A stretch of 64,000 bases of DNA from Sporanaerobium hydrogeniformans (GTDB lineage Bacteria > Bacillota > Clostridia > Lachnospirales > Cellulosilyticaceae), in contig NZ_PEDL01000001.1 of NCBI RefSeq assembly GCF_002735925.1, positions 557,969 through 621,968 on the forward strand, read 5' to 3'. Below the pieces are notes generated by a model. The model saw only the letters and a program-made list of their open reading frames with translations, was not told the DNA's origin and did no database searches. This document shows, piece by piece, positions 6,962-61,174 of the stretch. The position numbers and the translations under genes were made by a program. The number at the start of each line of letters is the position of its first letter. Position 1 is the stretch's first letter.

Positions 6962-7108
6962 AAAGATGGTAAGGTTGCACAAAGTCAGCGCAAAATATGC
7001 ATGATTTATATGGATTTATTGGTAAAAATCACTAAAAAACCAGTTGATTTATTCACTGCTACAAGGCACGTTGAGTGTGTTGTCTTGATGTCAAGGGTGG
7101 AGAAGTAG
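6962..7108 (+). pseudogene. rlmD: RlmD/RumA-like C-terminal tail 1 (probable left att region)
   Basis: An orphan open stretch without a plausible start ends in KPVDLFTATRHVECVVLMSRVEK split over nt 7034-7105, then TAG. The PVDLF-x-x-T-x-HVExVVLMSR pattern is the C-terminus of the 23S rRNA (uracil-C5) methyltransferase family RlmD/RumA. No methyltransferase body precedes it; the Avs-like gene does. Two further copies of the HVE(C/T)(V/L)V(L/M)MS(R/K) tail occur at 58597 and 61019, with different codons. I read this copy as the gene end carried by, or left at, an insertion junction, with the prophage element starting just inside it. The family call rests on motif recognition alone. Confidence 0.65.
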
Positions 7109-7134
7109 AAGGATTGCAAATGCCTATATAAATA

Positions 7135-7202
7135 AAGGGTTTCCAGACATTGAGCTTTTCTATAGGCTACTTTGCCGGAGGTTCTCATATCAGGAAACCC
7201 TT
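7135..7202. terminator. Long-loop hairpin, possible bidirectional terminator
   Basis: AAGGGTTTCC (7135-7144) is perfectly complementary to GGAAACCCTT (7193-7202), with a ~48-nt loop. On the plus strand it is followed by ATTTTTATTG; on the minus strand the arm is followed by TATTTATAT. It lies between the RlmD-like tail and the end of the minus-strand restriction operon, so it could stop transcription from both sides. The long loop makes this a moderate call. Confidence 0.4.
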
Positions 7203-7247
7203 ATTTTTATTGTTTGAGGTAACATAATCAACTGCCCTGAAAGTGAT

Positions 7248-7309
7248 AGGGTTGAGTTGACAGGTTAGATAACGCCTATTTTTGTAGGGGTTGAGTTGAC
7301 AGGATAGAT
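7248..7309. repeat. Two direct repeats of a ~23-bp unit just 3' of the restriction operon
   Basis: GGTTGAGTTGACAGG followed by (T/A)TAGAT occurs twice, at 7248-7270 and 7286-7309, 39 bp apart. Both copies lie in the 50 bp next to the stop codon of the Res gene and about 140-200 bp inside RlmD-like tail 1. The position near the presumed left end fits recombinase accessory or regulator binding sites. I know of no matching described element. Confidence 0.6.
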
Positions 7310-7316
7310 GTAGAAT

Positions 7317-9824
7317 TTAATCTTCTCTCTCCGCATCTGTATCGAAAATTCTGTCAAGCTCCTCATTTGATATAATGCCACGTACTTTGTTTCTAACCGT
7401 TGTTTTTCCCATATCAAGACGATAGAAATGGTCACGACCATCCACACCTTTTTTTAGTCGAATAAGTTGAATCCTACCAAATTTATCCCAGTGTTTCTCA
7501 GCAAATTTTGCTAATCCTACAGCTTTGGGGTAATTGTCTTTACGACTAGGGTCATGAGGTTCAAGAATGTCGAAAACATAACCTTCTGTATCAGCTCTCA
7601 CAACTACCAAATCTGGGAACATGGAAGTGGTAACGCCGTTAACTTCATACGGAATTTCGAGTGACCATTTTTTACGATCAAGATTACGCAACCAGCAAAT
7701 AGCGCCATTTTTTAGTTCTTCATCAATAACTCCGCTTTCCCATTTATTTAGTGATGTTTGGAATGTGCCATCCTCAGCACAGTAGAGATGTTGTTCAAAC
7801 TTTATTCTATCGTCTGGCAGATAAAAATCGATTGAATCCGGCAATACCCATGGCACTGCAATTGGTTGTGCTGAAGCGTTGATTAATCTTTCATAAACAT
7901 TCTTTCGTGCCTCATTTAGCTTTGCAATGGCGCGTTTGTTATTTTCATACAGTGTAATAAATTCTTCCTCTGCGAAATCATTTATTCTTTCCATTGCATT
8001 AGTATCATTTGTAAGAACGATTATTTCAACTTTTACATCAATATGATCCCTGGTACTATTCCGAATCCAATATTCTTTGTGCAAGCCTTCCCCTAACAAT
8101 TTTCCTGATTGTTCAAAATGACGAGAAATATCAAACTCTGATACTGTCATAGTCTGTGAGGACTCATCAAAAGAATAGGCATTGTCTCCATAATCAAATG
8201 TCAACGTGCCAAGCTCAAAGCCAGTGATTGCAGCTACTCGGTTTTCAAAATCACCACTTTCTTTGATCCGCGTGATTTCCTCATGCATTTTTAACAACAC
8301 TGCGTTTTTGATAGTCTTTTGAGCTTCTAAGTCGATACCATCCATGGTAAGAGCACGAGAAATCTGAATTAATAATTTTAATGGTGCTTGCTTACGAACT
8401 GAATCTATCCGGTAAGTGATGAGGTTATCCATTGCATCAAACACGTCTGTATATGCCAAGTTTCGCCCTAATGTTACAAGCTCTTTGTTAGTTCCTGTTT
8501 CTGTTGGCATAATTGCTTCACTGTCACGTAAAGCATTAACAACATTTTTTACCGTTTCTTCATCAAAGTATGGAAGGAATAAGCTGACGCTGTTAAGTTC
8601 AGCATCAGAAGATATCCTTCTGGCCAAAGGTGTACGAATAACTCGCCCTAACAATTGAGCAATATAAGTATAATCCTGCGCACTACGGAATGACATCATT
8701 GTTTCGGCACGTGGACAATCCCATCCTGTAGAGAGATTCATTTTGAAGAATACAACCATCACATTTTCTTCGTCATTTATTCTAGACGCTTCTATTTGTT
8801 GTATTTCAACATCACGTACTTTAAGTGTGCCACGGTCATTGAATGTATGCACGACTTCACCTGGCTGTAATTTGCGTCCTATTGTTTCTTCTAGTAAATC
8901 AATACAAGTTCCTAAATCAGTATGAGTTGCTTCACGCTCATTGCCATCTTCAACCTGTATAACAAGAATAGGGTTCACCATTTTCTCGTCTTCGCGCTCA
9001 CAGTAGGATTTCCAATGAGCACATTTTTTGCGCCAATTATCTACTGCACCTTTAAACATTGTCATATCGGCAGTTAATTGAATATCTGGATAGTGTATGA
9101 TGATTCTGTCTTTCAACAAACCGGACTCACGTACCTGCTCAGGTGGAACGATGACTTTCTGGACGGTTGATGTCGTTCCGGCAATTAAATTATCAAATCT
9201 CTGGGGTGTCGCTGTCACACCGATCACTAAAGGCATGACACAAAGTCCGTCTTCTTTACTGCCTTTAATAAATTTTTGCATTATTGACTGTGCCTTGTTT
9301 TCTGCTTGAACGGAGGTATAGGTACCCCTATGCGCTTCATCAATCACCACATAAAATTGTTTAGGACTGCGCTTAGCAGTATTAGTAAGTGTTTCCCAGA
9401 TGGAATATTGGCGTGTATCTGAAGTCCCTGTTAGCAGTTTATCAGAACCGAGTTTTTGAGTATTTAAAAAGTAAATGCAACCACCCTCGAAATATTCAAT
9501 GTTAAAGGTTGATTCTATTGTTACCAGATCACGAACACGAATTTTGTCAGATTTACTTTCAATCTTCAGCCTTGTTTGTTCGTTAAGCTCCGGTGAATCG
9601 GATAGCCAAATGAAAACAGAATCTGGCTCTCCAATGCTGTCAGCACTGCCATATAATATATCCTCAAAAAGTGTTGTCATAATGATAGTTTTTCCTGAAC
9701 CCGTAGGGGCGGAAAAGGATATTATCTGTGGATCGCGTTCGCTCCACATCAAATGCGCTTTATTAATTTTATCATGTAGTTCGGCAAGGGCCGTTTCCTG
9801 AAAAGGAAATAATATATCTCTCAT
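7317..9824 (-). CDS. res: Type III-like restriction helicase-nuclease (Res)
   Basis: An 835-aa SF2 helicase with motif I APTGSGKT (39-46), DEAH (162-165), GVTATPQRF (~202-210) and a motif VI QLLGRVIRTP in the middle. The C-terminal part has FPDLVVVR followed by FDILEPHD, in the place where Type III Res nucleases carry PD...(D/E)xK; here the expected Lys is not in the usual spot, so the active site is either a variant or a different fold. Its start codon ATG directly abuts the TGA of the upstream mod gene (9825), the usual mod-res order. With Mod it would cleave DNA carrying inverted unmethylated sites, using ATP to travel along DNA. It is the last gene of the six-gene minus-strand operon. Confidence 0.85.
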   Translation of the reverse strand: MRDILFPFQETALAELHDKINKAHLMWSERDPQIISFSAPTGSGKTIIMTTLFEDILYGSADSIGEPDSVFIWLSDSPELNEQTRLKIESKSDKIRVRDLVTIESTFNIEYFEGGCIYFLNTQKLGSDKLLTGTSDTRQYSIWETLTNTAKRSPKQFYVVIDEAHRGTYTSVQAENKAQSIMQKFIKGSKEDGLCVMPLVIGVTATPQRFDNLIAGTTSTVQKVIVPPEQVRESGLLKDRIIIHYPDIQLTADMTMFKGAVDNWRKKCAHWKSYCEREDEKMVNPILVIQVEDGNEREATHTDLGTCIDLLEETIGRKLQPGEVVHTFNDRGTLKVRDVEIQQIEASRINDEENVMVVFFKMNLSTGWDCPRAETMMSFRSAQDYTYIAQLLGRVIRTPLARRISSDAELNSVSLFLPYFDEETVKNVVNALRDSEAIMPTETGTNKELVTLGRNLAYTDVFDAMDNLITYRIDSVRKQAPLKLLIQISRALTMDGIDLEAQKTIKNAVLLKMHEEITRIKESGDFENRVAAITGFELGTLTFDYGDNAYSFDESSQTMTVSEFDISRHFEQSGKLLGEGLHKEYWIRNSTRDHIDVKVEIIVLTNDTNAMERINDFAEEEFITLYENNKRAIAKLNEARKNVYERLINASAQPIAVPWVLPDSIDFYLPDDRIKFEQHLYCAEDGTFQTSLNKWESGVIDEELKNGAICWLRNLDRKKWSLEIPYEVNGVTTSMFPDLVVVRADTEGYVFDILEPHDPSRKDNYPKAVGLAKFAEKHWDKFGRIQLIRLKKGVDGRDHFYRLDMGKTTVRNKVRGIISNEELDRIFDTDAERED

Positions 9825-12134
9825 TTATGAATCCCTCCTGCTTCCCAACACAAAGTTATCGATATAATCGCGATAAAGTTGGTATGTGTTATTTGCTTTT
9901 ACTCCAGCCGTCATTTCACGGAAAGCTTCCTCGGAGTTAGTAACGAAGTAGACTACTTGGATATTATCCTCTTCAGAAAGCTTTTCGGTAAACTCAGCAA
10001 ACTTTGTTTCATCAACCAGGATAGCAAAGCCATTTTGAGGTAAAATTAGCATTTCAGGTTCATCATTGCTGTTTACTTCTGGTCGTTTTCCAATGGCACC
10101 AGATTTAAGCCATAGTAACGGTAATATTTCGCGGAACTGTTGACCTAATGAAACACTGTTTTTATCCAAGAATTCTAGCTTGAAGTATTCAGCGTTTGCA
10201 GGAAAGCCTTCACTCATAGGACGCTTAACTTGTGATGTTACGATGATTGACCCAAGTAAGTGAGAAACACGTGTTTTGATAGACTTGAATATGGCAGCTG
10301 ATTTTGATGCAATATAAAAGTCTGTGATATGATCCTGTTCCTCAAGAGCAGTCAACCACTCATCAGCGGAATCTACATCAAAGAGAATTGAAGCTGTATG
10401 TTTATCCGAAACGATGAATTTACTGTCTTTGCTTACTAGTGATTGCGGTAGTTGTGCCTTTCCTTCCTTGTTTTTGAGTAAAGAGACGATTTGCTTTTTT
10501 GCAGTAGCGGTTAATTCAGAAGGATTATCTACAAAACCCAACTGATAGAATGAGCGCTCAATCTCATTAGATGCAGTCTGAGTCGTGAAGTATTCACCTG
10601 TTAGGGTTGAACCATCATCTCGCTTGCCAAGAATGCTATACTTTGTCCTTGGCCAAGTTACCGCACGACAAATTCCATGTTTTTCCCATTCAATGTCGCC
10701 AGGCTGATAGCCATTTTTTTTCAAGGCCTTTGCTTCATCATCGGATACCTCATTATTTGTTACTAATATACAGCGGCGGTTTCCGTCATCCTCAGAATTA
10801 AGTAAATTTACTGCATGTAATGTGGTGCCGCTACCTGCAAAAAAGTCAACAATTAGAGCATTTTTCTTTCCGGATACAGCGAATGTTAATGCTTCATGGA
10901 CAGCATAAAGCGATTTTGGGTATGAGAAGCCACCACCAAGTATGGATTTAATCATATCTGTACCGTGGGCTTCTGCATTACATAAAGGATCAGTCCAAAC
11001 CGTTTTTGGAGGTTCGCTTTCTCTACGAAGGATAACTTCTATTCGATCTCCTTTTTTTTCAATAAACATTCTATCTTTTACTGATTCTACAGTATCGCGC
11101 CCATATCTCCATTTCTTTTCAATGCCATTCTTATCAATGGGCCAAACATAAATTGTACCATCTTCATTATGCTCTACTTGAGCTGTAGGGTGTAATTCTT
11201 TATCAAGTAAATCACCGAAACCGATGATATTATAATTAGAGTCTAAAATTACTGGATAAAAACATGTCGCACCTTCATATCGGCCTGATGTGCTCCCCCA
11301 ACGTCTTAGATTATATACATCTCCACCAGTATGTTGCTTGCGGTAAATAGTACTTTCTGCTGAATATGAAAATATCGCATATTCGTGAGTCACAGAGAAT
11401 TTTTTGCCCTGAGTTCCACCGGGATTATGCTGAATGGTTACACAAGTATGAGTTAGGTTTGGAAAAAGTTCATGAAGTAGAACCCATAGATGTGCATATT
11501 CATTATCATCTATTGTAGTAATCAAAACGCCATCATCAGCAAGTATTCTTTTTGCAATCTTTAATCGTTTTTGCATCATTGAGAGCCACTTACTGTGGCG
11601 CCAGTTATCACTAGAATCAACATAGTCATTATTGTATTTCCAATCCCGCGCACCTGTGTTGTATGGGGGGTCGATATAAATACAATCAACCTTCTTAGGG
11701 TAGAGATATTCCAGTAACTGAAGGGCATGATAATTGTCTGCTTCAATGACTGCATGCCATAAGTTACTATCAGGCGCATTTTCTACAGAATCAATCGGTT
11801 GAAGAGTGGGAAAAATTGGCTCGCCAAATTGAGCAACTGAAACTAGCTCCGTGATTGGTATGTTCTCGGTATTACCAGTTGCTTTGTTGCGGCAAAGGGC
11901 AACATCTCCATCTAACTTCAGTACCGTATATACATCATTAATGTGGCCTGTTTTTTGTGCAACAGTCGAGCCACGTTTGATAGGAACTTCATAAAGTGGA
12001 GTGCATTCAGGGATGTGCTCCTCAAATACAAGACCAAATTTTTTGTTTTTTGATATGCGGGCAAATTCCTGTTCCAAGCGATTACGCAAAGAAGTGTCAG
12101 GGATTTGACGCAGTAAATCATTGATTGCAGCCAT
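9825..12134 (-). CDS. mod: Type III-like DNA methyltransferase (Mod, beta class)
   Basis: A 769-aa protein. Catalytic motif IV DPPYNTG (155-161) precedes the SAM-binding motif FFAGSG (431-436), the beta-class order seen in Type III Mod subunits, with a large specificity region between and after them. The NTGARDWKYNNDYVD context is typical of this subfamily, which methylates adenine N6. The start follows an AGGAGG site. It would both protect host DNA and give sequence specificity to Res. The recognition sequence cannot be predicted. The 19-nt gap to the DUF2326 ATPase upstream places it in the same transcript as the ABC-3C genes, which is not the minimal Type III layout. Confidence 0.88.
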   Translation of the reverse strand: MAAINDLLRQIPDTSLRNRLEQEFARISKNKKFGLVFEEHIPECTPLYEVPIKRGSTVAQKTGHINDVYTVLKLDGDVALCRNKATGNTENIPITELVSVAQFGEPIFPTLQPIDSVENAPDSNLWHAVIEADNYHALQLLEYLYPKKVDCIYIDPPYNTGARDWKYNNDYVDSSDNWRHSKWLSMMQKRLKIAKRILADDGVLITTIDDNEYAHLWVLLHELFPNLTHTCVTIQHNPGGTQGKKFSVTHEYAIFSYSAESTIYRKQHTGGDVYNLRRWGSTSGRYEGATCFYPVILDSNYNIIGFGDLLDKELHPTAQVEHNEDGTIYVWPIDKNGIEKKWRYGRDTVESVKDRMFIEKKGDRIEVILRRESEPPKTVWTDPLCNAEAHGTDMIKSILGGGFSYPKSLYAVHEALTFAVSGKKNALIVDFFAGSGTTLHAVNLLNSEDDGNRRCILVTNNEVSDDEAKALKKNGYQPGDIEWEKHGICRAVTWPRTKYSILGKRDDGSTLTGEYFTTQTASNEIERSFYQLGFVDNPSELTATAKKQIVSLLKNKEGKAQLPQSLVSKDSKFIVSDKHTASILFDVDSADEWLTALEEQDHITDFYIASKSAAIFKSIKTRVSHLLGSIIVTSQVKRPMSEGFPANAEYFKLEFLDKNSVSLGQQFREILPLLWLKSGAIGKRPEVNSNDEPEMLILPQNGFAILVDETKFAEFTEKLSEEDNIQVVYFVTNSEEAFREMTAGVKANNTYQLYRDYIDNFVLGSRRDS

Positions 12135-12153
12135 TTTTTAAATCCTCCTATAT

Positions 12154-13791
12154 TTAATCATTCGTTTCGTACTTACTCCACGAACGACCAAAAAGTTCAT
12201 TTCCGTCTGATAAGCGCAAGATTGCTGTTTCTTCTAAAATTCTATGTGCTTTCTCGGTTGTAGAATCAGCTTTATCAAATGCAATAAAAACCTGGTGCTT
12301 GGTAGATTGATAACGTTCCAATATATGCTCCAGATGAACATCCTCAATACGTTTAAGAATATTGGAGTCATGGATGATCGCAGGAATTGGGCGTAATTCA
12401 AGTACACTCAAATCGTACACAACAAGGCTCTTGAATGCTGTTCCTTCACTTGTGTTGCCAGGAGTTTCGAAGATGATGTCCTTCTGGGGAGTGATATACA
12501 AAAGAGGAGCAGTTTCCTGTTTATCAGTTACTACGCCGTTAATTGTTTCCATACGAAGATTGATGTCATCTTGTATCTCGCCTAGTTTTTCAGTTTGTTG
12601 CAACAATAGTTTTTCAAGTTTTTGCTCTGCTTCAGCTCGAGCATCCTGCAACTCTTTTTGATGAATCAACTCGGCTGTTTCTTCTTCAAGTCTATCAATG
12701 CTTTTTGATACATTAACACACTGAGAGAGTACTCTCTCAGACATCTCTTTTGCTATACCGGACTCTTCGATTTTTCGATTTAGGCGTCTGATTTCCTTAT
12801 CATATTCTTCGATTAGTGGTTGTAATCGATAGATTTCCTGATCCATTTCTTCGCCTAAAATCTCTCTGATTTTTATATGAAAATGTTCAATTTCTTCAAA
12901 TGCTTTTAAATTTGCATTTGGAAAGAAGCGTAGCAAGGATTCAAATTCACTTGCGGTTTCAGCCTTGCTGTCTGTTATATTGCTTTTTATAGCATTTAGC
13001 TGTGATTGCAGACGATTGCGCTTACGTATTATGCTATTCAATTCTTTTTGAACAGCTGTTATTCGTTCGAATGTTTGTGTATCAAACCCAAACATTGCTA
13101 ATTGAGCCTCTTCGCTGTTTTTCATTAGCTTTTGGAGTCTCTTTCTCAATGACTCGATAGTCTTTTGGTTACTTTCGATTTTATCTATGTCCACCTTTTG
13201 ACGCTGACGAGATTTAAGCTGTGAAGCTTTAATTCCGAGTTCTTCCTCCATAAATTTGATAGAAGCAAGGATTTTGTAATGACCAAATAGCTTCAATAGA
13301 AAATCCACAGCCTTTTCATCTTGCTCACGAGGTTTCACTAACAATGGATACTTTTCTAGTGTATTTTCACGTCCATAGATACGGAAAAAACGTTCGGTTA
13401 TTTCTGAAAACGTAAGGGCTGGTAGCCCAATTTTATATTCCTGAAACAGAAATCTTCGAAATTCGTCAAGCGTCAATTTTGTTATGAAATGGCGCTCTTT
13501 ATCGATTCGATATACACTTTTAGGATCGTCAGTGCTTCTATAGAAATAATATGGCTGTCCCTCAAATTCGAAAGTGAAATAGATGGTATGTGGGCCTATT
13601 TCCTTTTTTATATCATCTGTCAGGGAGTAGTAGCTTTCACCGCCGAATACATAATCTATAATCCATAGGAATGTTGATTTTCCGATTGCATTGCTACCGC
13701 CTGCGCTACCTAGAACTGTATTTAAGCCTGAGTTAAACCGGATAATTTGATGCTCTGGAGCAAATTTATCACATTGAATCTCTATCAACAT
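12154..13791 (-). CDS. DUF2326 SMC-like ATPase of an ABC-three-component system
   Basis: A 545-aa protein if it starts at the ATG at 13791 (MLIEIQCDKF), which has AAGGGAGGG at the proper distance; an upstream ATG at 13815 would waste that site. The ATPase head opens with GGSNAIGKST (31-40), an ABC/SMC-type Walker A. Residues ~170-420 are coiled coil, and the C-terminal part matches my memory of DUF2326 (an IIHDSNILKR and VFIAFDKADS region replacing a classical Walker B). In ABC-3C conflict systems this ATPase is the sensor or loader that works with a small middle component and a third, effector-bearing component. Both are encoded immediately upstream and overlap or nearly abut it, which supports the assignment. 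Confidence 0.75.
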   Translation of the reverse strand: MLIEIQCDKFAPEHQIIRFNSGLNTVLGSAGGSNAIGKSTFLWIIDYVFGGESYYSLTDDIKKEIGPHTIYFTFEFEGQPYYFYRSTDDPKSVYRIDKERHFITKLTLDEFRRFLFQEYKIGLPALTFSEITERFFRIYGRENTLEKYPLLVKPREQDEKAVDFLLKLFGHYKILASIKFMEEELGIKASQLKSRQRQKVDIDKIESNQKTIESLRKRLQKLMKNSEEAQLAMFGFDTQTFERITAVQKELNSIIRKRNRLQSQLNAIKSNITDSKAETASEFESLLRFFPNANLKAFEEIEHFHIKIREILGEEMDQEIYRLQPLIEEYDKEIRRLNRKIEESGIAKEMSERVLSQCVNVSKSIDRLEEETAELIHQKELQDARAEAEQKLEKLLLQQTEKLGEIQDDINLRMETINGVVTDKQETAPLLYITPQKDIIFETPGNTSEGTAFKSLVVYDLSVLELRPIPAIIHDSNILKRIEDVHLEHILERYQSTKHQVFIAFDKADSTTEKAHRILEETAILRLSDGNELFGRSWSKYETND

Positions 13792-14008
13792 ATCGTAGCA
13801 CCCTCCCTTCTTCAATTAGTCCAATTTTACCTAATGCAAACAAGCAGTCTAAAGCACTCAGGAAATCAGCCATGTCCTTTTCACGATATCTAGTTAGTTC
13901 AAATAACTCTTTAGGTGACATATCCTGTTGTGCTAATGCCTCTAAAATATCTGGGAAAAGAGAAATAACGCTGTTTGTATAGGAAGTTACTTTATTTGGT
14001 AATCTCAT
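13769..14008 (-). CDS. ABC-3C middle component-like small protein
   Basis: A 79-aa protein starting MRLPNKVTSYTNSV at the ATG at 14008, which has GAGGTG 6-7 nt upstream; an ATG 12 nt earlier lies before that site. Both ends overlap the neighbours (17 nt with the upstream gene, 23 nt with the ATPase). The short winged-helix-like sequence, with a central SPKELFELTRYREKD and ending LIEEGRVLRYVDRD, fits the small middle components described for ABC-3C systems. These are thought to bridge the ATPase and the effector component. The specific subtype number is not assignable by eye. Confidence 0.6.
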   Translation of the reverse strand: MRLPNKVTSYTNSVISLFPDILEALAQQDMSPKELFELTRYREKDMADFLSALDCLFALGKIGLIEEGRVLRYVDRDSM

Positions 14009-15230
14009 CGAACACCTCACACCTTTGAACGAAGTAGGAGATTATTATCTCGCAAGCTTCTCTATATTTGCGGCCGGTTTTTTCAAACAAAGTTTCAACA
14101 AGTAGGTTGTATATTGCGCTTTGAGATATATGTGATTCACTTGCATCTTCATACATCCGTTTGACGCTTTTTGCAAATTTATCGACGTTCAGCTTGTTTT
14201 CTCCGGCCAACCGATCTAATGCATCATTGACTCCCTGATACAACCGCCGAACATCAAAAAGCACTCTTTCTTTCAAACGTTTTTCAGTGATTTTATTCTC
14301 AACTTTTACAGGTTCAATTTTGAGTTGTGTATCATCAGTAACATCCATTAAGTCAACTTCCCGAAGTACTTGTTCGATTTGCTTTTCTATTGTATATCTC
14401 GAGGTTGCATCTCTTGCAGCCATAAGAACTTCCAAGTCATGCTTTTCTGATAGTAAAGCTAATTTTACTTCCTCAGAAGCATTTTGAATTTCGCGCTCAC
14501 ATTCAACACATAAAACCACTTCATCAGTTTCTGAAAGGTGAACGACTTTAGCATAGTTAACGTCGTTGCCTTCTTTTTTTATACCTAAAACTCTTCCGCA
14601 CTTTTGGCATTTGCCACCTGTTTCTGCAAGCAACACTAAAGAGCGGGCATCAATCGCAATTTCGTAAGCAGTTTCCATAGACAAATTGCTATACGTTGTA
14701 ATGAAACTAATATCCATTTTTTGATCTTCAAAGGACTGTATGTACTCGGCAGTTGTCTCTTTCACGCTATCTTCGCAATTTCGGTTCTCGACATTTAATA
14801 CTGTGTAAAGAAAAACTCCGGCGATAAAGTCTTCAAAAACAAAAGCATCACGTCTTACTATAGATTTCTTGGTCATGCCATTCACTATTTCGACTATTGT
14901 GTCAGGCTCAATTGTATTATCAGACGCAATAATGTCTTTCAGAGCAAGAATGATGAGGCTCCTTTTATTGCTATCCAACATGTTAAGAATGTGCTGTTTA
15001 AAGTAATTAGAAACAGCGCGTGGGTCTACTGTTGGAGCTTTATCAGTTATATTAGGCGATAGATTCTTTTTACCCAGAATTAAATCTGAAACAGTACCGT
15101 CCTCACCACGAATATCATAAGTAGGCGCAATAGAAAGTAGCATGGTACCACATAGAAGTTTTTGTGAAATTCTTTTTGCGCTACAAATCTTTAAAATTGT
15201 TGCAAAAGTACCAAAACATAGCTTTTTCAT
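13992..15230 (-). CDS. ABC-3C third component with zinc treble-clef motif
   Basis: A 412-aa protein beginning MKKLCFGTFATILK, with GGAGG 8-9 nt upstream of its ATG. The N-terminal ~65 residues contain GTMLLSIAPTYDIRGEDGTVSDL, split here as a conserved-looking adaptor or DNA-binding-like module. Two CxxC pairs follow: C208/C211 (CQKC) and C241/C244 (CVEC), with a VVHLS segment between. This makes a zinc-binding treble clef like a degenerate HNH. The C-terminal third is helical. The composition and position fit the ABC-3C component that carries the C-terminal domain coupling it to the ATPase. No classical toxin domain is recognisable, so the effector activity, possibly a nuclease through the HNH-like part, is open. 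Confidence 0.55.
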   Translation of the reverse strand: MKKLCFGTFATILKICSAKRISQKLLCGTMLLSIAPTYDIRGEDGTVSDLILGKKNLSPNITDKAPTVDPRAVSNYFKQHILNMLDSNKRSLIILALKDIIASDNTIEPDTIVEIVNGMTKKSIVRRDAFVFEDFIAGVFLYTVLNVENRNCEDSVKETTAEYIQSFEDQKMDISFITTYSNLSMETAYEIAIDARSLVLLAETGGKCQKCGRVLGIKKEGNDVNYAKVVHLSETDEVVLCVECEREIQNASEEVKLALLSEKHDLEVLMAARDATSRYTIEKQIEQVLREVDLMDVTDDTQLKIEPVKVENKITEKRLKERVLFDVRRLYQGVNDALDRLAGENKLNVDKFAKSVKRMYEDASESHISQSAIYNLLVETLFEKTGRKYREACEIIISYFVQRCEVFDEITK

Positions 15231-15254
15231 ATATTGCGCCTCCTTTCATTGAAT

Positions 15255-15473
15255 TTAATCTGTTGAAGTATCGTCATCGACGTAGTCAACAATATCTCCA
15301 ATGTTGACATCAAGGGCTTTACAGATTCTTCCTAACACATCCATGCTTACCGGCAGATCTTTACTCATTTTTGCTATCGTTGTCGACGTTAAGTTCGTTA
15401 TTGCCATTAAATCCTTTTTCATCATTTTTTTATCTATTAAAAGTTTCCACAATTTGTTATAACTAAAAGCCAT
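15255..15473 (-). CDS. Small XRE/Cro-family HTH regulator
   Basis: A 72-aa protein from the ATG at 15473 (MAFSYNKLWKLLIDKKMMK), preceded by GGAGGCGATTATA. Almost the whole protein is one helix-turn-helix: KKDLMAITNLTSTTIAKM is the turn region, and ICKALDVNIGDIVDY is the typical end of the domain. It is the first gene of the ABC-3C/Mod/Res operon and lies 271 bp from the divergent phage early genes. It could be the operon autoregulator, the prophage repressor, or both. No other CI-like repressor is visible in the element. Confidence 0.85.
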   Translation of the reverse strand: MAFSYNKLWKLLIDKKMMKKDLMAITNLTSTTIAKMSKDLPVSMDVLGRICKALDVNIGDIVDYVDDDTSTD

Positions 15474-51721: not shown

Positions 51722-51729
51722 GCTTTTTT

Positions 51730-53649: not shown

Positions 53650-54081
53650 ATGCCTCATGTACCATATGGATATACGATTCAAGATGGAAAAGCGGTGATT
53701 GACCAGCTACAAGCAGAGCAGCTAAAGAAGCTATTCAAAGCATATCTTTCAGGTCTTTCCTTGAAGGATGCGGCTAAGAAAGCTGGGATTGTTAGATATC
53801 ATGCCACTATTGCGAATATGCTCACAAATAAGCGATACCTTGGGGATGACTATTATCCCAAGATTATTGATGAGGATACTTTTGAAAAGGTAGAGGCTGA
53901 AAAGTTAAGACGGGCACAAATGCTCGGCAGAATTTGGGAGCATAAACCAAAGGAAAATAGTATTAAGAAATACCAGTTCGCCATGCCAACACCGGATGAG
54001 CTTTATGATGACCCATTTAAACAAGCAGAATATGTTTATAGCCTTATAGAAAGCGAGGCGATTGATAATGACGATGAGTAG
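53650..54081 (+). CDS. Recombinase-domain protein without catalytic domain
   Basis: A 143-aa protein starting one base after the previous stop, with GGAGAG upstream. It contains only a Recombinase-type DNA-binding domain ([14 protein letters not shown] ... [22 protein letters not shown]) and no Ser active site. The same short gene lies between two full recombinases in related elements. It may be a DNA-binding helper or directionality partner. The acidic C-terminus overlaps the next gene. Confidence 0.85.
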
Positions 54082-55639
54082 GAATGTAACAGTTATACCA
54101 GCACGAGCTCGTGTGGGTAATAACCAAGAAACTGAAAGTAAAACCAAACTTCGAGTGGCGGCTTACTGTAGAGTTTCAACTGATAGTGAAGAACAAGCCT
54201 CCAGTTATGAGGTTCAGATTGAACATTACACTTCCTACATTAAAGGGAACCCTGAATGGGAGCTGGCAGGAATTTATGCGGACGACGGGATTTCAGGAAC
54301 CAATACTAAAAAGCGCGAAGAGTTTAACCGGATGATTGAAGCATGCATGGAAGGTAAAATTGACATGATCATTACCAAGTCCATTAGCCGTTTTGCCAGA
54401 AACACGCTGGATTGTTTGAAATACATCCGGCAGCTAAAGGATAAAAATATCCCTGTTTTCTTTGAGAAAGAGAACATCAATACTATGGATTCCAAGGGTG
54501 AAATCATGCTGACAATCATGGCTTCACTGGCCCAACAAGAAAGCCAGTCCTTAAGCCAAAACGTAAAGCTAGGCATTCAGTACCGCTTCCAACAAGGTGA
54601 AATTCAAGTCAACCACAACCGGTTTTTAGGATACACCAAAGACGAAAATAAAAGGCTTGTTATTGTTCCTGAAGAAGCCGAAGTGGTAAAGCGAATCTAT
54701 CGAGAATACCTTGAAGGAGCAAGTCTCCTACAAATAGCAAGAGGCCTAGAAGCGGATGGTATTCTCACTGCAGCTAAAAAGCCTAAGTGGAGACCCGAGA
54801 CGCTTAAGAAAATACTGCAGAATGAAAAGTATATAGGAGATGCCTTGCTTCAAAAGACTTACACCGTTGATTTTCTTTCCAAAAAGCGAGTAGTCAATAA
54901 TGGAATCGTACCTCAGTACTATGTTGAGAACAGTCATGAACCTATCATCCCGCGTGGAATTTTCATGCAGGTGCAGGAAGAACTGGTAAGGCGGGCTAAC
55001 CTTTATACTGGAAAGAATGGTAAGAAGCGAGTTTATAGCAGCAAGTACGCTCTGTCCAGTATTGTCTACTGCTCAGAATGTGGTGAAATATATAGAAGAG
55101 TCCACTGGAACAATCGAGGCTGCAGGTCTATTGTCTGGCGATGCGTCAGCCGCCTAGAGGAAAAAGGGTCTGATTGCACATCCCCTACAGTTAATGAGGA
55201 AGTGCTACAGGCAGCAGTTGTAAAAGCCATCAATGAGTTGCTGGCCAGTAAGGATACCTTTCTCTCCACTTTACAGGCCAATATCGAGACAGTTTTAAAT
55301 GAAGAACACGACAAAATTACCAATGATATTGACGTCAAGCTGGAAGAACTGCAAAACGAACTTTTGCGGCTTGCCAATTCCAAAACAGATTATGAGGAAG
55401 TGGCGGAAGAGATATACCGTTTGCGGGAGCAGAAGCAAAATGCACTGGTTGAGAATGCAGATCGAGAAGGGAAAAGGCAACGAATCGCTGAAATGAGTGA
55501 TTTCTTGAATGAGCAATCCTGCGAGTTAGAGGAGTATGATGAGCAATTAGTAAGGCGGCTTATAGAAAAAGTTACGGTATTTCATGATAAGTTCGCCGTT
55601 GAATTCAAATCAGGAGTCGAGATTGATGTAGAAGGGTAA
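54068..55639 (+). CDS. Large serine recombinase 2
   Basis: A 523-aa protein; the ATG at 54068 has GCGAGG 9 nt upstream. Catalytic domain: [13 protein letters not shown] with the nucleophilic Ser and [16 protein letters not shown]; then Recombinase domain ([13 protein letters not shown] ... [18 protein letters not shown]), zinc ribbon ([11 protein letters not shown] ... WRCVSR) and a long coiled coil. All key residues are present. With recombinase 1 and the short middle protein it forms a three-gene integrase set like those reported in phi-m46.1-like prophages. Confidence 0.93.
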
Positions 55640-55667
55640 TCTTTAGAAAGAGAACAGAAGAATTATA

Positions 55668-55696
55668 TTGGATTTTTAAAGATAATATGATATAAT
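55668..55696 (+). promoter_or_regulatory. Strong promoter of lsa(E)
   Basis: TTGGAT (55668-55673), 17 nt, TATAAT (55691-55696), with TG one base before the -10 (extended -10). It drives a ~385-nt leader holding a small ORF and attenuator structures ahead of lsa(E). Confidence 0.85.
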
Positions 55697-55718
55697 AAAA
55701 CGACTTGGAGGTGGAAGA

Positions 55719-55739
55719 ATGTATAACTTTTCTTGCTAA
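55719..55739 (+). CDS. Leader peptide MYNFSC upstream of lsa(E)
   Basis: GGAGGTGGAAGA places a good ribosome binding site before this 6-codon ORF (ATG-TAT-AAC-TTT-TCT-TGC-TAA). Its codons 4-6 form one arm of the leader hairpin that competes with the antiterminator (next entry). Short leader peptides that sense drug-stalled ribosomes control several ABC-F resistance genes. Confidence 0.7.
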   Translation: MYNFSC

Positions 55740-55925
55740 TTATATGATGCATAATAAGATATTTAAAGAAACGGCTATAGAACCGTTTGTTTTGTTATGC
55801 AAATTGCAAGAAAGTTAAGTATTCTACACTCAATAATACATTACAGTAACCTTATGTTATGTATAACAAAAGGTAATAATAGTATTTGTTTTTGAGCCGT
55901 AAGAATTTACTTTCTTGTGGCTTTT
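55729..55925 (+). promoter_or_regulatory. lsa(E): Transcription attenuator of lsa(E)
   Basis: Region 1 TTTCTTGC (55729-55736, inside the leader ORF) pairs exactly with region 2 GCAAGAAA (55806-55813). A terminator, AGCCGTAAGAA (55895-55905) with TTCTTGTGGCT (55912-55922), has 11 continuous pairs (two G-U) and is followed by Ts. CAAGAAA of region 2 can instead pair with TTTCTTG (55911-55917) in the 3' arm of the terminator. A ribosome stalled on the leader ORF would free region 2, block the terminator and let RNA polymerase reach lsa(E). A further hairpin AAACGG/CCGTTT lies at 55769-55788. Confidence 0.75.
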
Positions 55926-56081
55926 AATATTTGTAAAAGAAAGGAAGATAAACGTGATAGACAATGATACTATGTCATTCATGACAAAATCCTTGCAGAG
56001 TTGGATAACATTATAGAGTAATTAATGCCGAAAACCGACTTTGCTTATAAAATTTTTATAATGTAAAGGAGGAAGAAATAT

Positions 56082-57566
56082 ATGTCCTTAATAAATGTTT
56101 CAAATCTAACTTTTTCATATGAAGGAAGTTATGACAATATTTTTGAAAATGTAAGTTTTCAGATAGATACAGATTGGAAACTCGGTTTTATTGGAAGAAA
56201 CGGACGCGGTAAAACTACTTTCTTAAATTTACTGCTTGGCAAATATGCGTATTCCGGCAATATAAGTTCTACAGTTAAGTTTGAGTATTTTCCTTATGAT
56301 GTGGAAGATAAGAGTCTATATACAATTGAAGTAATGAAGAGTATTTGTACGGAATGTATGGATTGGGAGATTTTTCGTGAAATATCATTGCTTGATGTTC
56401 AAGAAGATGCTTTATATCGTCCGTTTAATACATTGTCAAATGGTGAGCAAACAAAGGTCCTTCTTGCAGCTTTATTCCTTACAGCGAGTTGTTTCCTGCT
56501 TATTGATGAACCTACAAACCATCTTGACATCGATGCACGTAATGTAGTGCAAAACTATTTGAAACGCAAGAAGGGGTTTATTTTGGTATCTCATGATAGA
56601 AGCTTACTTGATCAATGTGTTGACCATATACTATCTATCAATAAAACGAATATCGAAATCCAAAAGGGAAATTTTACTTCTTGGTGGGAGAACAAAACGT
56701 TACAAGATAATTTTGAACTGGCAGAAAACAAGAAACTCCTTAAAGAAATAGGAAGGTTGTCTTATGCAGCAAAACGTAGTTCAAACTGGTCAAATAAAGT
56801 AGAAAAAAGTAAATATGGAACAACAAATTCTGGTTCAAAACTGGATAAGGGTTATGTTGGACATAAGGCTGCAAAAGCGATGAAACGTGCCAAAAATATT
56901 GAGTCAAGACATCAGGAAGCCGTTTTACAAAAATCAGAACTGCTCCACAACATTGAACAATATGATGACTTAAAAATTTCACCACTTGAATTTCACAAAG
57001 AGTGCTTAATAGAAGCGAATGATTTATCATTGTCTTATGGAGATAAAGAAGTATGCAGTAATCTTAATTTCAGAGTCAATATTGGTGATAGAGTTGCCAT
57101 TATCGGAAAAAATGGGAGTGGTAAGTCTAGTATCCTAAAATTGATTAATGGAGATGATATTAAATTTACCGGAAATTTTATGCTAGCAAGTGGACTAAAA
57201 ATTTCTTATATTTCGCAAGATACTTCATATTTAAAAGGTAATCTATCTGAATTTGTCTATAATAATAAGATCGATGAAACTCTATTTAAAACGATTCTTC
57301 GTAAACTGGATTTTAATAGAGAGCAGTTTGATAAGAACATGGTGGATTTTAGTGCTGGTCAGAAAAAGAAAGTACTAATTGCTAAAAGCCTTTGTGAAAG
57401 TGCACATTTGTATATATGGGATGAGCCATTGAACTATATTGATATTTTTTCACGTATCCAAATTGAAAAAATGATTTTGGAATATTGTCCTACACTATTG
57501 TTTGTGGAGCATGATGATGCTTTTTGCAATAATATTTGTACGAAAAATATTAATTTAGGTTTGTAG
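56082..57566 (+). CDS. lsa(E): ABC-F ribosomal protection protein Lsa(E)
   Basis: A 494-aa protein with AAAGGAGGAAG before the ATG; length and sequence match my memory of Lsa(E). Two ATPase domains without membrane parts: first Walker A GRNGRGKTT (~38-46) with LSNGEQTKV and LLIDEPTNHLD; linker ~190-300 rich in Lys; second Walker A GKNGSGKSS with FSAGQKKKV and IWDEPLNYID. ABC-F proteins bind the ribosomal E site and displace drugs from the peptidyl transferase centre. Lsa(E) gives resistance to pleuromutilins, lincosamides and streptogramin A. It is followed after 53 nt by lnu(B), its usual partner. The DNA is visibly more A+T-rich than the phage genes. Confidence 0.88.
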   Translation: MSLINVSNLTFSYEGSYDNIFENVSFQIDTDWKLGFIGRNGRGKTTFLNLLLGKYAYSGNISSTVKFEYFPYDVEDKSLYTIEVMKSICTECMDWEIFREISLLDVQEDALYRPFNTLSNGEQTKVLLAALFLTASCFLLIDEPTNHLDIDARNVVQNYLKRKKGFILVSHDRSLLDQCVDHILSINKTNIEIQKGNFTSWWENKTLQDNFELAENKKLLKEIGRLSYAAKRSSNWSNKVEKSKYGTTNSGSKLDKGYVGHKAAKAMKRAKNIESRHQEAVLQKSELLHNIEQYDDLKISPLEFHKECLIEANDLSLSYGDKEVCSNLNFRVNIGDRVAIIGKNGSGKSSILKLINGDDIKFTGNFMLASGLKISYISQDTSYLKGNLSEFVYNNKIDETLFKTILRKLDFNREQFDKNMVDFSAGQKKKVLIAKSLCESAHLYIWDEPLNYIDIFSRIQIEKMILEYCPTLLFVEHDDAFCNNICTKNINLGL

Positions 57567-57619
57567 AGATTTTGAGTTGCCACAATAACTAAAAGATATT
57601 TACATGAAAGGGTGAAGAA

Positions 57620-58423
57620 ATGTTAAAACAAAAAGAATTAATTGCAAACGTTAAGAATCTTACTGAGTCAGATGAACGAATTACAGCTTGTATGATGTAT
57701 GGATCGTTTACCAAAGGAGAAGGTGACCAATACTCTGATATAGAGTTCTATATATTTTTGAAAGATAGTATAACCTCGAACTTTGATTCATCCAACTGGT
57801 TGTTTGACGTAGCTCCGTACTTGATGCTTTATAAAAATGAGTACGGAACAGAGGTAGTTATTTTTGATAATCTTATACGTGGGGAATTTCATTTCCTTTC
57901 TGAAAAAGATATGAACATAATCCCCTCGTTTAAAGATTCAGGTTATATTCCTGATACGAAGGCTATGCTTATTTACGATGAAACAGGGCAATTAGAAAAT
58001 TATTTATCAGAGATAAGTGGTGCAAGACCAAATAGACTTACTGAAGAAAATGCTAATTTTTTGTTGTGTAATTTCTCTAATCTATGGTTGATGGGAATCA
58101 ACGTTCTAAAAAGAGGAGAATATGCTCGTTCATTAGAACTCTTATCACAACTTCAAAAAAATACACTACAACTTATACGTATGGCAGAAAAAAATGCTGA
58201 TAATTGGCTAAACATGAGTAAAAACCTTGAAAAAGAAATTAGCCTTGAAAATTATAAAAAATTTGCAAAGACCACTGCTCGATTAGATAAGGTAGAATTA
58301 TTTGAAGCCTATAAAAATTCTTTGCTATTAGTTATGGATTTGCAAAGTCACCTTATTGAACAATACAACTTAAAAGTTACACATGACATTTTAGAAAGAT
58401 TGTTGAATTACATTAGTGAATAG
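57620..58423 (+). CDS. lnu(B): Lincosamide nucleotidyltransferase Lnu(B)
   Basis: A 267-aa protein, the length of Lnu(B), with AAAGGGTGAAG before the ATG. The nucleotidyltransferase core is CMMYGSFTKGEGDQYSDIEF (~25-44), holding GS and the metal-binding D-x-E, and VVIFDNLIRGEFHF carries the third acidic residue region. It transfers AMP to lincosamides such as lincomycin and clindamycin. With lsa(E) it forms the cluster found in staphylococci, enterococci, streptococci and Erysipelothrix. The aadE/spw genes often found upstream are absent here. Confidence 0.88.
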   Translation: MLKQKELIANVKNLTESDERITACMMYGSFTKGEGDQYSDIEFYIFLKDSITSNFDSSNWLFDVAPYLMLYKNEYGTEVVIFDNLIRGEFHFLSEKDMNIIPSFKDSGYIPDTKAMLIYDETGQLENYLSEISGARPNRLTEENANFLLCNFSNLWLMGINVLKRGEYARSLELLSQLQKNTLQLIRMAEKNADNWLNMSKNLEKEISLENYKKFAKTTARLDKVELFEAYKNSLLLVMDLQSHLIEQYNLKVTHDILERLLNYISE

Positions 58424-58493
58424 GAGAGTAACGTTATTTACAGTATTGGGTACTGAAAATTAACAGCATACCTCAGTTTTTCAAAAAACAGCG

Positions 58494-58638
58494 AAGCCTA
58501 TGGATATGTTTCCGTCTACCGATAGTGTAAAAAACGCAGTAGATATGTTTCCGAGAACGGACATAATCAAATGACATTCATTCTATCCTCTCAAGCCACG
58601 TTGAGACAGTAGTAATGATGTCAAGGGCGGAAAAGTAA
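58494..58638 (+). pseudogene. rlmD: RlmD/RumA-like C-terminal tail 2 (probable right att region)
   Basis: In one frame KPMDMFPSTDSVKNAVDMFP-RTD (58494-58562) shows the DMFPxT motif of RlmD twice, 39 nt apart, and ends at a TGA. About 35 nt later, in the next frame, the terminal HVETVVMMSRAEK follows (58597-58635, TAA). In a normal gene DMFPRT would directly precede HVETVV, so an insertion or junction lies between them. This marks the right side of the element that holds the recombinases and lsa(E)-lnu(B). The same HVE... end is present at 7067 and 61019. Confidence 0.65.
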
Positions 58639-58791
58639 AGGGCTTGAAAGTGTAGAAAACAAGGGCATTTGCCATTTTAGGGTAGTTTCAGAATTGCGTC
58701 TAATGGCTTGTTTACGGGAATAAATCCACTTCTCAAAAAGCATAAGGTTGTGTAGATAGGATTGCTTTTCGGTAGGTTGTGGAGATAGACA

Positions 58792-58800
58792 TGTTATAAT
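58792..58800 (+). promoter_or_regulatory. Extended -10 promoter upstream of the 115-aa gene
   Basis: TGTTATAAT: consensus TATAAT with TG one base upstream. No good -35 is seen, which extended -10 promoters can do without. The gene starts 135 nt downstream, after the inverted repeat. Confidence 0.5.
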
Positions 58801-58934
58801 AAAACACTTTAATAGCCTAAATATCATATAACTTAATTAATAAAATGTTAGTTAGGCTACTAGTATAGAAAAGTAGATGAAGTTGAATTTACAAGTGAAA
58901 ATTATTTATATTAGTTAAGTAAGGCGGTGATTAA

Positions 58935-59282
58935 ATGTTTAATGAAATCTGTATTTATGAAGCAAAGATCGAGAAGCAAGATGAAATCGAAGCACTCATG
59001 AAAGAAGTTGCAGAATTCTATATGACACAGGAGGGTGTCGTTGATGTGAAATATATCAAGCGTACACATCGTCAAGCCGATTTCAATGCAGTAAAGCAAG
59101 GGGAGCTACCAATTGCTTTGACAAGGTTTATGGGTAAAGTAACATATGTTTTACATTGGACTGTTAGAGATGAAGAAACTCATGCAAGAGTGTCAAAACT
59201 AGGATTGGAACATTTTTATAAAAGATGGAACAGATGCTTGACAACAATGCCTAAAATTATTTTAGGTGAAAACATTGTGTAG
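58935..59282 (+). CDS. Small ABM-like (dimeric alpha-beta barrel) protein, unknown function
   Basis: A 115-aa protein with AAGGCGGTG before the ATG. The pattern NEICIYEAKIEKQDEIEALM, FYMTQEGVVDVKYIKR and VTYVLHWTVRDEETHAR looks like the ferredoxin-like antibiotic-biosynthesis-monooxygenase/dimeric barrel fold, whose members bind small molecules. No catalytic residue can be named. It is followed by a DUF3795 gene; the two may be a small cargo operon. Confidence 0.6.
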   Translation: MFNEICIYEAKIEKQDEIEALMKEVAEFYMTQEGVVDVKYIKRTHRQADFNAVKQGELPIALTRFMGKVTYVLHWTVRDEETHARVSKLGLEHFYKRWNRCLTTMPKIILGENIV

Positions 59283-59344
59283 AAAAATGAGCAAGACAGA
59301 AAGTTGCAACATTTCAGCAGTATTTTTGTGGGGGAGTGATATCG

Positions 59345-59902
59345 ATGAAAGGTTTTCAGCGAGAAGATTTGATGTTTTCACTTTGTGGATTAAACTGTGC
59401 TCTTTGTACAATGAAGATAGATAATTATTGTCCCGGTTGCGGTGGAGGAGCAGGAAATCAAGGCTGTTCCATTGCTCGTTGTAGTTTAGAATATGGCGGG
59501 TTAGATTATTGTTTTAAGTGTAGTGAATACCCGTGTGACAAGTATAACGGAATTGAAGAGTTTGATTCTTTTATAACTCACCGTCATCAACTCAAAGATA
59601 TGGAAAAAGTAAAGAATATTGGTATTGGTTCATATCATACTGAATTATCTGAGAAAGCTAAAATTCTACTGTACTTACTCGAAAATTATAATGATGGTAG
59701 ACGCAAAACCTTATTTGGTCTAGCTATTAATCTTTTAGAGCTTACCGACATCAAAGTAGTCATTCAAGAAATTGATAGTAAAGTTTCACCGAACATGACA
59801 ATCAAAGATAAAGCAATAATTGCTGCGAAGCAATTTGAAGATGTAGCATTAAAGAAAGGTATTATCCTAAAGTTAAATAAAAAGCCTTCAAAAGGCAAAT
59901 AA
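59345..59902 (+). CDS. DUF3795 cysteine-rich protein
   Basis: A 185-aa protein starting MKGFQREDLMFSLCGLNCAL, with GGGGGAG 9 nt before the ATG. The N-terminal ~75 residues hold a Cys cluster (CGLNCALC, CPGCGGG, CSIARC, CFKCSEYPCDKY) that matches DUF3795 and surely binds zinc or an iron-sulfur cluster. The C-terminal part is helical. DUF3795 proteins are common in clostridia and may sense or transfer metal or redox signals; the function is unproven. Confidence 0.8.
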   Translation: MKGFQREDLMFSLCGLNCALCTMKIDNYCPGCGGGAGNQGCSIARCSLEYGGLDYCFKCSEYPCDKYNGIEEFDSFITHRHQLKDMEKVKNIGIGSYHTELSEKAKILLYLLENYNDGRRKTLFGLAINLLELTDIKVVIQEIDSKVSPNMTIKDKAIIAAKQFEDVALKKGIILKLNKKPSKGK

Positions 59903-59986
59903 TCAAAAAGAGCATAATTTCAAGCACGAATAATCCGTTTTTTCAAACAGAAGCATGAAGATTATTTTATACCAAAGAGGTGCAGT

Positions 59987-60907
59987 ATGTTGAGAAGTCC
60001 TAAAATACATTTCATATCTGCTGTACCGAAGCGAGAAAAAAGGATCGCTATTTATGCTAGGGTATGTACAAACGATGCTGAGCAATTAAAAAGCCTTGCT
60101 GTACAAGTATCTGCATTTACACGATTGGTAGCCTCTATTCCATAATGGCTTTTGGTAGATGTTTATATGGATGTTGCATCCGGAAAAGCTGGCACAGCAA
60201 GAAAAGAATTTGCTCGTATGCTTGAAGACTGCAAGGCACATAAAATAGAAATTATTTTGACCAAGAATATCAGCCGTTTTGGTAGAGACACTGTTGAGAT
60301 ATTGGAGGCTTTGAATCAGCTAAAGGTTCTTGGTGTTCGTGTAATATTTGATGGAGAGCATTTGGATACTGCCAATACAAATACTGACGTAATAATATCT
60401 GTCACAGAAGCAATAGCACAAGCAGAGAATGAATCAAGAAGTGAAAACATCAAATTGGGTATCAAACAGCAAGTGGCTGATGGCAGTTCAAAGCTGTATG
60501 ATAGAAAGTGTTACGGTTACTCACATGATGCTGGTGGTTGTCTAATTATTGATGATACAGAAGCTAAAAATGTAAGGCTGATTTTCGATCTTTACCTTCA
60601 TGGTAAAAGTATTATAGGTGTTGTTAAAGAATTGGAGCAACGAGGAATTAAGTCCCCATCAGGAAAAGATAAATGGTGTAAGCGTTCCATTGATGTAATG
60701 CTGAGTCTTGAGAAATATACTGGAACCGTTCGACTCTTAGATTCTGGAAATCATGAAATATAGTATGTTTCGGAAAATAATAATCCTGCAATTATATCAA
60801 AGGAAACCTATCAAGCAGTGCAGATCGAAAAGGCTCGCCGAAGTAATGTGACGCAAGCTCAGGATGGAAAGCAAAGGAAAAACAAAAAATTCAGTTCTAA
60901 AAAGTAA
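59987..60907 (+). pseudogene. Inactivated serine recombinase
   Basis: A serine recombinase frame from ATG 59987 (MLRSPKIHFISAVPKREKR) with in-frame stops at 60143 (TAA) and 60761 (TAG), then running to TAA at 60905. The usual ARVST active-site Ser is replaced by Cys (IYARVCTNDAEQ). TKNISRFGRDTVEIL, the Recombinase domain (CYGYSHDAGG ... LSLEKYTGTV) and a basic tail remain, but the zinc ribbon and coiled coil are gone. It is clearly non-functional as an integrase. The part between the stops (203 codons) has an internal TTG but no good ribosome binding site. Confidence 0.85.
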
Positions 60908-61174
60908 AATAGCCTAATCGAGATTGATTGTTTCGATAAGACAAAAAGAATGTTAAACCTGCATAGATACTGCATTTTCACAGTAAAAATCAAAGCGTGG
61001 GAAATAGCCTAAAAATTACATGTCGAAACCTTGGTATTGATGTCGAAAAAATGAGACTCTGAAACCTTGAGAATACTGGGGTCCAAGGCTTGTAAAGAAT
61101 AAAAAGCAACACTGGGCTTGAAATATTATGTATATGAAAGTTTGAGATTATTATTTCTGTAGTAGATGTACATA
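60908..61174. other. Non-coding stretch between the dead recombinase and the beta-helix gene
   Basis: Holds RlmD-like tail 3 at 61016-61054 and otherwise no gene. ATTGA/TCGAAA-type A+T-rich sequence predominates. No hairpin followed by a T tract was found. Confidence 0.5.
61016..61054 (+). pseudogene. rlmD: RlmD/RumA-like C-terminal tail 3
   Basis: LHVETLVLMSKK then TGA (61052-61054), preceded immediately in frame by a TAA and AAA. The HVETLVLMS(K/R) pattern is the same RlmD end as at 7067 and 58597, with different codons. As the outermost copy on the right it may be the original chromosomal gene end, with foreign DNA now directly before HVE. The match is short, so confidence depends on the coincidence of three such tails next to integrase genes. 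Confidence 0.5.

Follow-up and report, generated by a model that had tools for sequence, protein, structure and literature searches.

Four mobile-element-like segments lie end to end behind a single rlmD gene in Sporanaerobium hydrogeniformans

In Sporanaerobium hydrogeniformans, four mobile-element-like segments lie end to end behind one rlmD gene. The stretch of DNA that we analyzed (hereafter the window) spans 64,000 nucleotides (C11:557969–621968 of a 3.74-Mb genome), ends where its contig ends, and contains three RlmD-type C-terminal tails that lack a methyltransferase body: HVECVVLMSRVEK at 7067, HVETVVMMSRAEK at 58597, and HVETLVLMSKK at 61019, each on the plus strand and followed directly by a stop codon. 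A fourth orphan tail, HVEAIILMTYCGDKAKDEG-stop, begins at C11:556296 (window position −1672), 1,673 bases to the left of the window. An intact rlmD, with a full reading frame ending in VDMFPQTVHCEVVTLLQHSEK, occupies C11:549361–550728, 7.2 kb left of the window (508.6 bits at C11:549415–550695). We consider it highly probable that four elements each inserted at the same rlmD codon, supplied the gene with a new 3′ end, and displaced the former end to the right, such that 68,300 bp now separate the rlmD body from the last tail (all lengths counted from the H codon).

A first-pass annotation of the window had called the three tails, noted that those at 58597 and 61019 lie to the right of serine recombinase genes, and proposed that successive elements had inserted at the rlmD 3′ end, each bringing a substitute gene end. 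The tails and the recombinases are real (two full genes and one partial at 52075–55639, and part of a broken one at 60152–60763), and the gene body that it expected to the left of the window is indeed there, adjoining the stack on its left side rather than lying elsewhere and free of elements. Its stacked insertions stand, but there are four elements, the fourth tail lying left of the window. Its substitute ends also stand, but the tail that follows an element on the right is the earlier gene end, which that element displaced, and therefore 58597 marks the left end of a 2.4-kb element and the tail at 61019 is likely to be the native rlmD end.

Orphan gene ends and the layout of the stack

The insertion scheme is drawn from the way in which large serine recombinases generally act. 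An element that entered between VDMFPxT and HVE would have its left end joined to the rlmD body and would leave the former gene end beyond its right end. Serine recombinases would have carried out the insertions, and presumably excise the elements as well; if all four elements entered at rlmD itself, as we propose, the newest would adjoin the gene and the oldest would lie farthest to the right.

To locate tails we used BLOSUM scores, with six frames over both strands of the window plus the 18 kb to its left. The four tails scored 47 (7067), 44 (58597), 40 (61019), and 38 (C11:556296), the next-best score was 27, and the best score per copy in 20 Markov-shuffled copies ranged from 24 to 33. The tails at 7067 and 58597 were themselves among the reference peptides, which makes their scores self-matches; the other two tails were not in the set. 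The present rlmD end scored only 24, and thus the scan is not exhaustive. That the tails arose by chance, or are the remains of duplicated rlmD genes, we regard as scarcely credible. The genome does have a second, weaker RlmD-type gene, on contig C63, as duplication would predict, but the tail scores exceed those of the shuffled copies, and the DNA behind the tails at C11:556296, 7067, and 58597 matches element left ends in other loci (that behind 61019 has no such match). A motif scan of the 14 kb surrounding the C63 gene returned only the end of that gene itself. We also looked for a terminator behind the present rlmD end and the tails at 7067 and 58597, and found one at the rlmD end only.

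The stack is laid out as follows.

C11:550687–556295: element I, 5,609 bp
C11:556296–565034: element II, 8,739 bp; left boundary placed from the tail at C11:556296
1–7066, plus strand: right part of element II, with the end of a Fic gene (7–429) and a gene for a 2113-amino-acid Avs3a-like NACHT protein (436–6777)
7034–7066, plus strand: right end of element II, placed from the tail
7067–58596, plus strand: element III, a predicted 51,530-bp prophage, delimited by homologues of both ends and by its phage genes
7067–7108, plus strand: left end of element III, substitute rlmD 3′ end HVECVVLMSRVEK-stop
58500–58596, plus strand: right end of element III, with the motif GACAT-N12-CTCRAGS and two upstream DMFP look-alikes, at 58503 and 58542
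58597–61018, plus strand: element IV, 2,422 bp, both ends matched by an rlmD-adjacent element of genome G087
58597–58638, plus strand: left end of element IV, former rlmD 3′ end HVETVVMMSRAEK-stop, 88% identical to G087 over 206 bp
61019–61054, plus strand: last tail, HVETLVLMSKK-stop, likely the native rlmD 3′ end, displaced by 68.3 kb

Junctions and right ends in other genomes

When the two halves of each tail junction were compared with a set of fetched loci, two rlmD bodies were found fused to left ends of the window's types, in agreement with serial insertion at the 3′ end of the gene. In G087, rlmD runs through VDMFPHTA into HVETVALMSKVEK-stop, joined at the H codon, with 88% identity to 58597–58802 from the first base; in L019 it runs through VDMFPHTA into HVECVVLMSRVDK-stop, joined at the same codon, with 82% identity over 244 bp to the 7067-type left end. 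The G087 element also matches 60780–61018 at 79.5%, the match ending at the same base and giving way to HVETVCLLTRK-stop, which makes the G087 version of element IV 4.07 kb long, with a 306-amino-acid recombinase frame. In L019, homology is contiguous over window positions 7067–10091 at 80%, taking in part of a defense operon, and beyond 10091 we saw by eye a restriction gene, a polymerase-like fragment, and recombinase pieces, so that the stretch behind rlmD looks like a deleted remnant of an element of the same kind as element III.

The left end of element III is supported by L138 and L290 as well as L019. Its right end is present in 24 loci and recurs ahead of different tails, and in 15 of the 17 loci inspected the tail-like sequence begins at the base aligned with 58597 (L202 and L203 are the exceptions; L126 and L127 are identical to each other there). 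The junction at the fourth tail occurs whole in L040 (88% identity over 50 bp of the right end, 81% over 84 bp on the tail side), and in L023 the left end that now closes rlmD occurs as an orphan tail 1.2 kb behind that locus's own rlmD.

From this locus we learned a right-end motif, GACAT-N12-CTCRAGS joined to CAYGTNGA, and scanned 398 genomes of the phylum with it. The motif gave 26 matches in 21 genomes, which represent 21 genera, and the reversed pattern gave none; two matches shared a contig and strand in 5 of the 21. Five genomes could not be judged because their rlmD is on another contig, which left 16 with an rlmD-type gene above the cut-off on the motif contig, and in 13 of these, our own genome included, the motif lies 1.0 to 65.8 kb downstream of that gene on the same strand. 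Codons 4–9 after the motif, which are outside the pattern, were RlmD-like in 53 of 56 distinct junctions (30 of them viral matches; one of the three failures is cut by a contig end), compared to 69 of 2800 random places.

Right ends of type A, as at 58500–58563, hold a look-alike of half an attB site (DNA for DMFPxT) at a fixed distance. Of the 56 junctions, 18 have AYGTTYCC within the last 57 bases, compared to 36 of 2240 random stretches, and 17 of the occurrences at junctions sit at −52 or −51. Two copies are present in the window, and some relatives have the look-alike in the reading frame of the tail. The pattern may be due to common ancestry. In another genome (G096:C1:2559588–2560852), a right-end motif is followed after ~260 bases by an rlmD-type gene in two pieces, which an element may have brought with it.

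Because every junction retains the tail half of the target, elements might also have entered at the inner junctions between a right end and a tail, in which case the order of the stack would not be the order of arrival. Insertion at the attL or attR of a resident element has been described for other sites, in the part of that report available to us (PMC5357655), and the leftmost element, element I, has a broken recombinase. Yet the left half of the usual target, VDMFPxT directly before the H codon, is missing at three of the inner junctions; at 7034, the fourth, there is only a loose resemblance. We regard inner entry as a live but somewhat unlikely alternative to successive entry at rlmD itself.

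The whole stack could also have been assembled in another host and acquired as a unit, whether through homologous recombination across rlmD or in the form of a composite element, and the tails would then not record insertions in this lineage. Junctions of like make-up do occur in distant hosts, as in L040, which shares the fourth-tail junction, and in the 21 genera with the motif. The pieces of the stack nevertheless match different loci (no search was aimed at genomes holding at least two of the four elements in order), and we judge arrival as a block improbable.

Several observations weigh against repeated insertion at rlmD. No recombinase gene was recognized in element II, and those of elements I and IV are broken; element I, the newest by position, has thus already lost an intact recombinase. 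The locus resembles an accretion array in that a single target holds at least two elements in head-to-tail order, separated by attachment-type junctions; in such an array, however, each element should have an intact-looking recombinase of its own, and here only element III does. The junction-half comparison returned no homologue of 7034–7066, which fits the right-end motif weakly, and because none was found, the right boundary of element II is set by its tail alone; the right end of element IV does not fit the motif. Among the genomes scanned, the motif is not downstream of rlmD in G424 and G345, and in G422 the contig of the motif has a single rlmD-type gene, a weaker-scoring copy to which the motif lies upstream. 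An additional right-end motif occurs in G087 at C3:111130, 5.4 kb past its HVETVCLLTRK tail; this genome therefore seems to be stacked too, and that tail need not be native. In the same way, a fifth element might have its left end in the last tail of our stack. Finally, the first-pass annotation had called for relatives with empty rlmD sites, and we found none that shares the right flank.

That search used the gene at 61240 as the marker of the right flank and failed, leaving the junction not demonstrable by synteny: this gene has weak partial matches in only 3 of 23 other genomes of the family, and the sequence to the right of 61019 gave no homologue in the junction-half comparison. Inspection by eye of 13 loci behind rlmD showed no gene shared by all of them; the congeners L086 and L087 share neighbors. 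The gene itself (61240–63501) encodes a secreted-looking protein of 753 amino acids with no Pfam match, and between 63500 and 64000 we noted by eye an IS66 TnpB-like fragment and a reverse-strand frame resembling an Avd-type four-helix protein.

Gene content of the elements

Element III is a predicted prophage with two exchangeable cargo slots, one in its left arm and the other between the recombinases and the right end. Its genes, and those of element IV, are as follows.

7317–15557, minus strand: defense operon in the left arm of element III
7317–9824, minus strand: type III restriction gene
9825–12134, minus strand: type III methylase gene
12154–13815, minus strand: LmuB/DUF2326-like gene
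13992–15230, minus strand: HamA/ABC-3C CTD11-like gene
15255–15557, minus strand: helix-turn-helix gene
16030–51669, plus strand: phage core with replication, terminase, portal, head, tail tape measure, holin, and endolysin genes
52075–55639, plus strand: serine recombinases (full, 52075–53649; Recombinase domain only, 53650–54081; full, 54062–55639)
56082–58423, plus strand: lsa(E)-type ABC-F gene (56082–57566) and lnu(B) (57620–58423), in the slot between the recombinases and the right end
58935–59282 and 59336–59902, plus strand: small genes of element IV, the second DUF3795
60152–60763, plus strand: longest open frame remaining from the broken serine recombinase gene in element IV

A scan of 10 proteins recovered the gene set of a tailed prophage (terminase, portal, major head, tape measure, and lysis genes). 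The first-pass annotation had assigned the defense operon and lsa(E)–lnu(B) to the same ~51.5-kb element, and viral contigs that run from the operon into the phage, together with the shared right end, bear this out. Single alignments cross the 15.5-kb point in L279 (window 7317–28353, with the whole operon) and in L277 and L285 (12154–28358 and 12154–26385, with part of it). In L295 and L297, stretches matching 7311/7333–10868 and 11545–15734 lie ahead of a related phage, and L299 has the same operon parts. Because homologous loci run from the operon into the phage, we assign the operon to element III. A separate defense element ending near 15.5 kb, where an alternative junction had been envisaged, was rejected on these contiguous homologues and on finding neither a tail nor a right-end motif there.

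The left arm appears to be an exchangeable slot, because in six loci (L272, L274, L275, L276, L278, and L292) homology begins only at 15.96–16.06 kb, with other genes leftward. Alternative left-arm genes encode type I methylases and LmuB-like proteins (L272, L275) or a type II methylase (L281). We compared the operon with Hachiman, which consists of HamA plus HamB: the HamA-like match covers residues 1–178 only, of a protein that carries ABC-3C C-terminal domain 11 and has an LmuB/DUF2326-like neighbor, and the helicase at 7317–9824 matches type III restriction endonuclease models.

In the right slot, the Lsa-family and Lnu(B) proteins score above curated NCBIfam cut-offs. Relatives carry other cargo between recombinase and right end, of which we examined a part: GajA and GajB in L172, DUF262-type proteins (PADLOC Orf5/HEC-06 models) in L111 and L163, ANT(6) and APH(3′)-IIIa in L101, whose contig stops before any right end, and a VanR-type regulator in L103.

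In element I, a broken serine recombinase (Pfam Resolvase and Recombinase in two pieces) lies directly behind rlmD, followed by a 1317-amino-acid protein with nSTAND matches and a weak partial PADLOC match, and then by the fourth tail. The 2113-amino-acid protein of element II is a predicted Avs3-like defense protein: it matches the Avs3a model near full length (residues 15–1930 on 9–1918 of 2090, E = 5.9e-154). A 135-amino-acid frame at the start of element II (L006:16630–17034) has a phrase resembling the catalytic domain of serine recombinases and no Pfam match; a recombinase origin was rejected, as the BLASTP match (E = 0.61) was not significant.

Enterococcal plasmids and known rlmD islands

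The right slot of element III recurs on plasmids of enterococci. Window 55079–58638 is 95.8% identical to an Enterococcus hirae plasmid and 55079–58611 is 95.9% identical to an E. faecium plasmid, these being the two that we fetched for detail among 129 matching plasmid records. The matching stretch comprises the 3′ part of the recombinase, lsa(E), lnu(B), and the right end, and a tail follows, HVETVVLLSRVEK in one plasmid and HVEAVCLLTRK in the other. Both plasmids have a second right end upstream, behind spw, which continues into HVETCVLLSHKSADDF, a long RlmD-type end as in G039. The ant(6)–spw stretch matches Streptococcus prophage Javan630 at 99.9% identity, a similarity that ends within two bases of the crossover, where Javan630 itself goes on into HLEAIAILEKQEV-stop; in a viral contig, the spw stretch stands at 99.8% ahead of yet another tail. 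The E. faecium plasmid continues with a recombinase fragment and cargo of the L101 type. At least 80% of the 4.75-kb stretch that holds the two junctions is covered in 92 of 134 matching plasmid records, and the exact first plasmid junction was found in none of the viral contigs.

Because two junctions of this kind are found around spw and lsa(E)–lnu(B) on the plasmids, the cluster looks like a fossil rlmD stack. We think it likely that the ant(6)–spw–lsa(E)–lnu(B) cluster of enterococci is a collapsed stack of this kind and that rlmD 3′ ends act as assembly lines. The spw cargo of a Javan630-type prophage, ending in an attachment right end, would come first; next would be a second element, beginning with its long RlmD-type left end and reduced to a recombinase fragment, lsa(E), and lnu(B); and a right end of the window's type would then lead into the left end of a third element. 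The cluster would thus have formed at an rlmD. In Streptococcus suis phage YS162 (L380), a spw-type right end is followed by HVEVVSLLEKRN-stop and then by lsaE–lnuB with only ~75 bases of recombinase fragment, perhaps another collapsed stack.

Neither the stacking of elements at rum/rlmD nor the presence there of prophages with lsa(E)–lnu(B) is new; we draw here on the parts of the cited reports that were accessible. The phiEr670-like prophages (Erysipelothrix phiEr670, Javan630) are ~53 kb long and carry lsaE–lnuB, and rlmD is their flanking gene in Erysipelothrix and other Gram-positive bacteria (PMC12785378). Element III shares with them the rlmD target, the site-specific recombinase, and the lsaE–lnuB cargo, but differs in its backbone: in megablast against a collection that includes Javan630, it fell short of the group's ~90% identity over at least 60%. 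Window 15600–40000 had no match to Javan630, 40000–61500 had only a 208-bp recombinase match, and the left-arm defense operon had no match in that collection.

The rum/rlmD hot spot with tandem insertions has been described before (PMC5053989, PMC7168690, PMC5357655), and in S. suis the phi-m46.1 group comprises prophages, integrative and conjugative elements (ICEs), and ICE–prophage tandems with resistance genes at the rum locus (PMC5053989, PMC7168690). In the accessible parts of these accounts, multiple elements at the rum 3′ end, tandems, and resistance genes are all shared with our locus. Unlike them, the stack described here is four deep, resides in a non-streptococcal host, has defense-type genes in three of its elements, and has an order that may be readable from its tails. 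An 82.6-kb composite element at rlmD in Streptococcus dysgalactiae contains a Tn5252-type element and has 18-nucleotide repeats, CAGACGCATCACGTGGAG, which in frame end in the same H-V-E codons as the window junctions; it is a single composite, and the available text mentions no displaced tails (PMC13214566). A Streptococcus pyogenes emm93 prophage with lsa(E)–lnu(B), presumably at rlmD, has the same site and cargo, and the accessible account presents it as a single island with a defective prophage, not as a stack (PMC8714194). The recombinase stretch has also been noted next to resistance genes, both on plasmids and in ICEs (PMC11595068). In the literature that we searched, whose coverage leaves out most subscription journals, we found neither a four-deep stack nor a plasmid fossil of one, and the accessible text of papers on lsaE with rlmD or on spw–lsaE–lnuB with the recombinase did not mention any rlmD ends within the plasmid cluster.

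With displaced gene ends, the composition of a multi-element island can be read from one sequence, and the age order of its elements becomes a testable prediction. Such ends also supply borders for the lsa(E)–lnu(B) cargo slot, and the motif locates such islands in other genomes. Anti-phage defense genes and a common resistance cluster of enterococcal plasmids are thereby tied to one attachment site. If our interpretation of the plasmid cluster is correct, rlmD ends would line up the resistance and defense cargo of unrelated phages and ICEs before its departure on plasmids.

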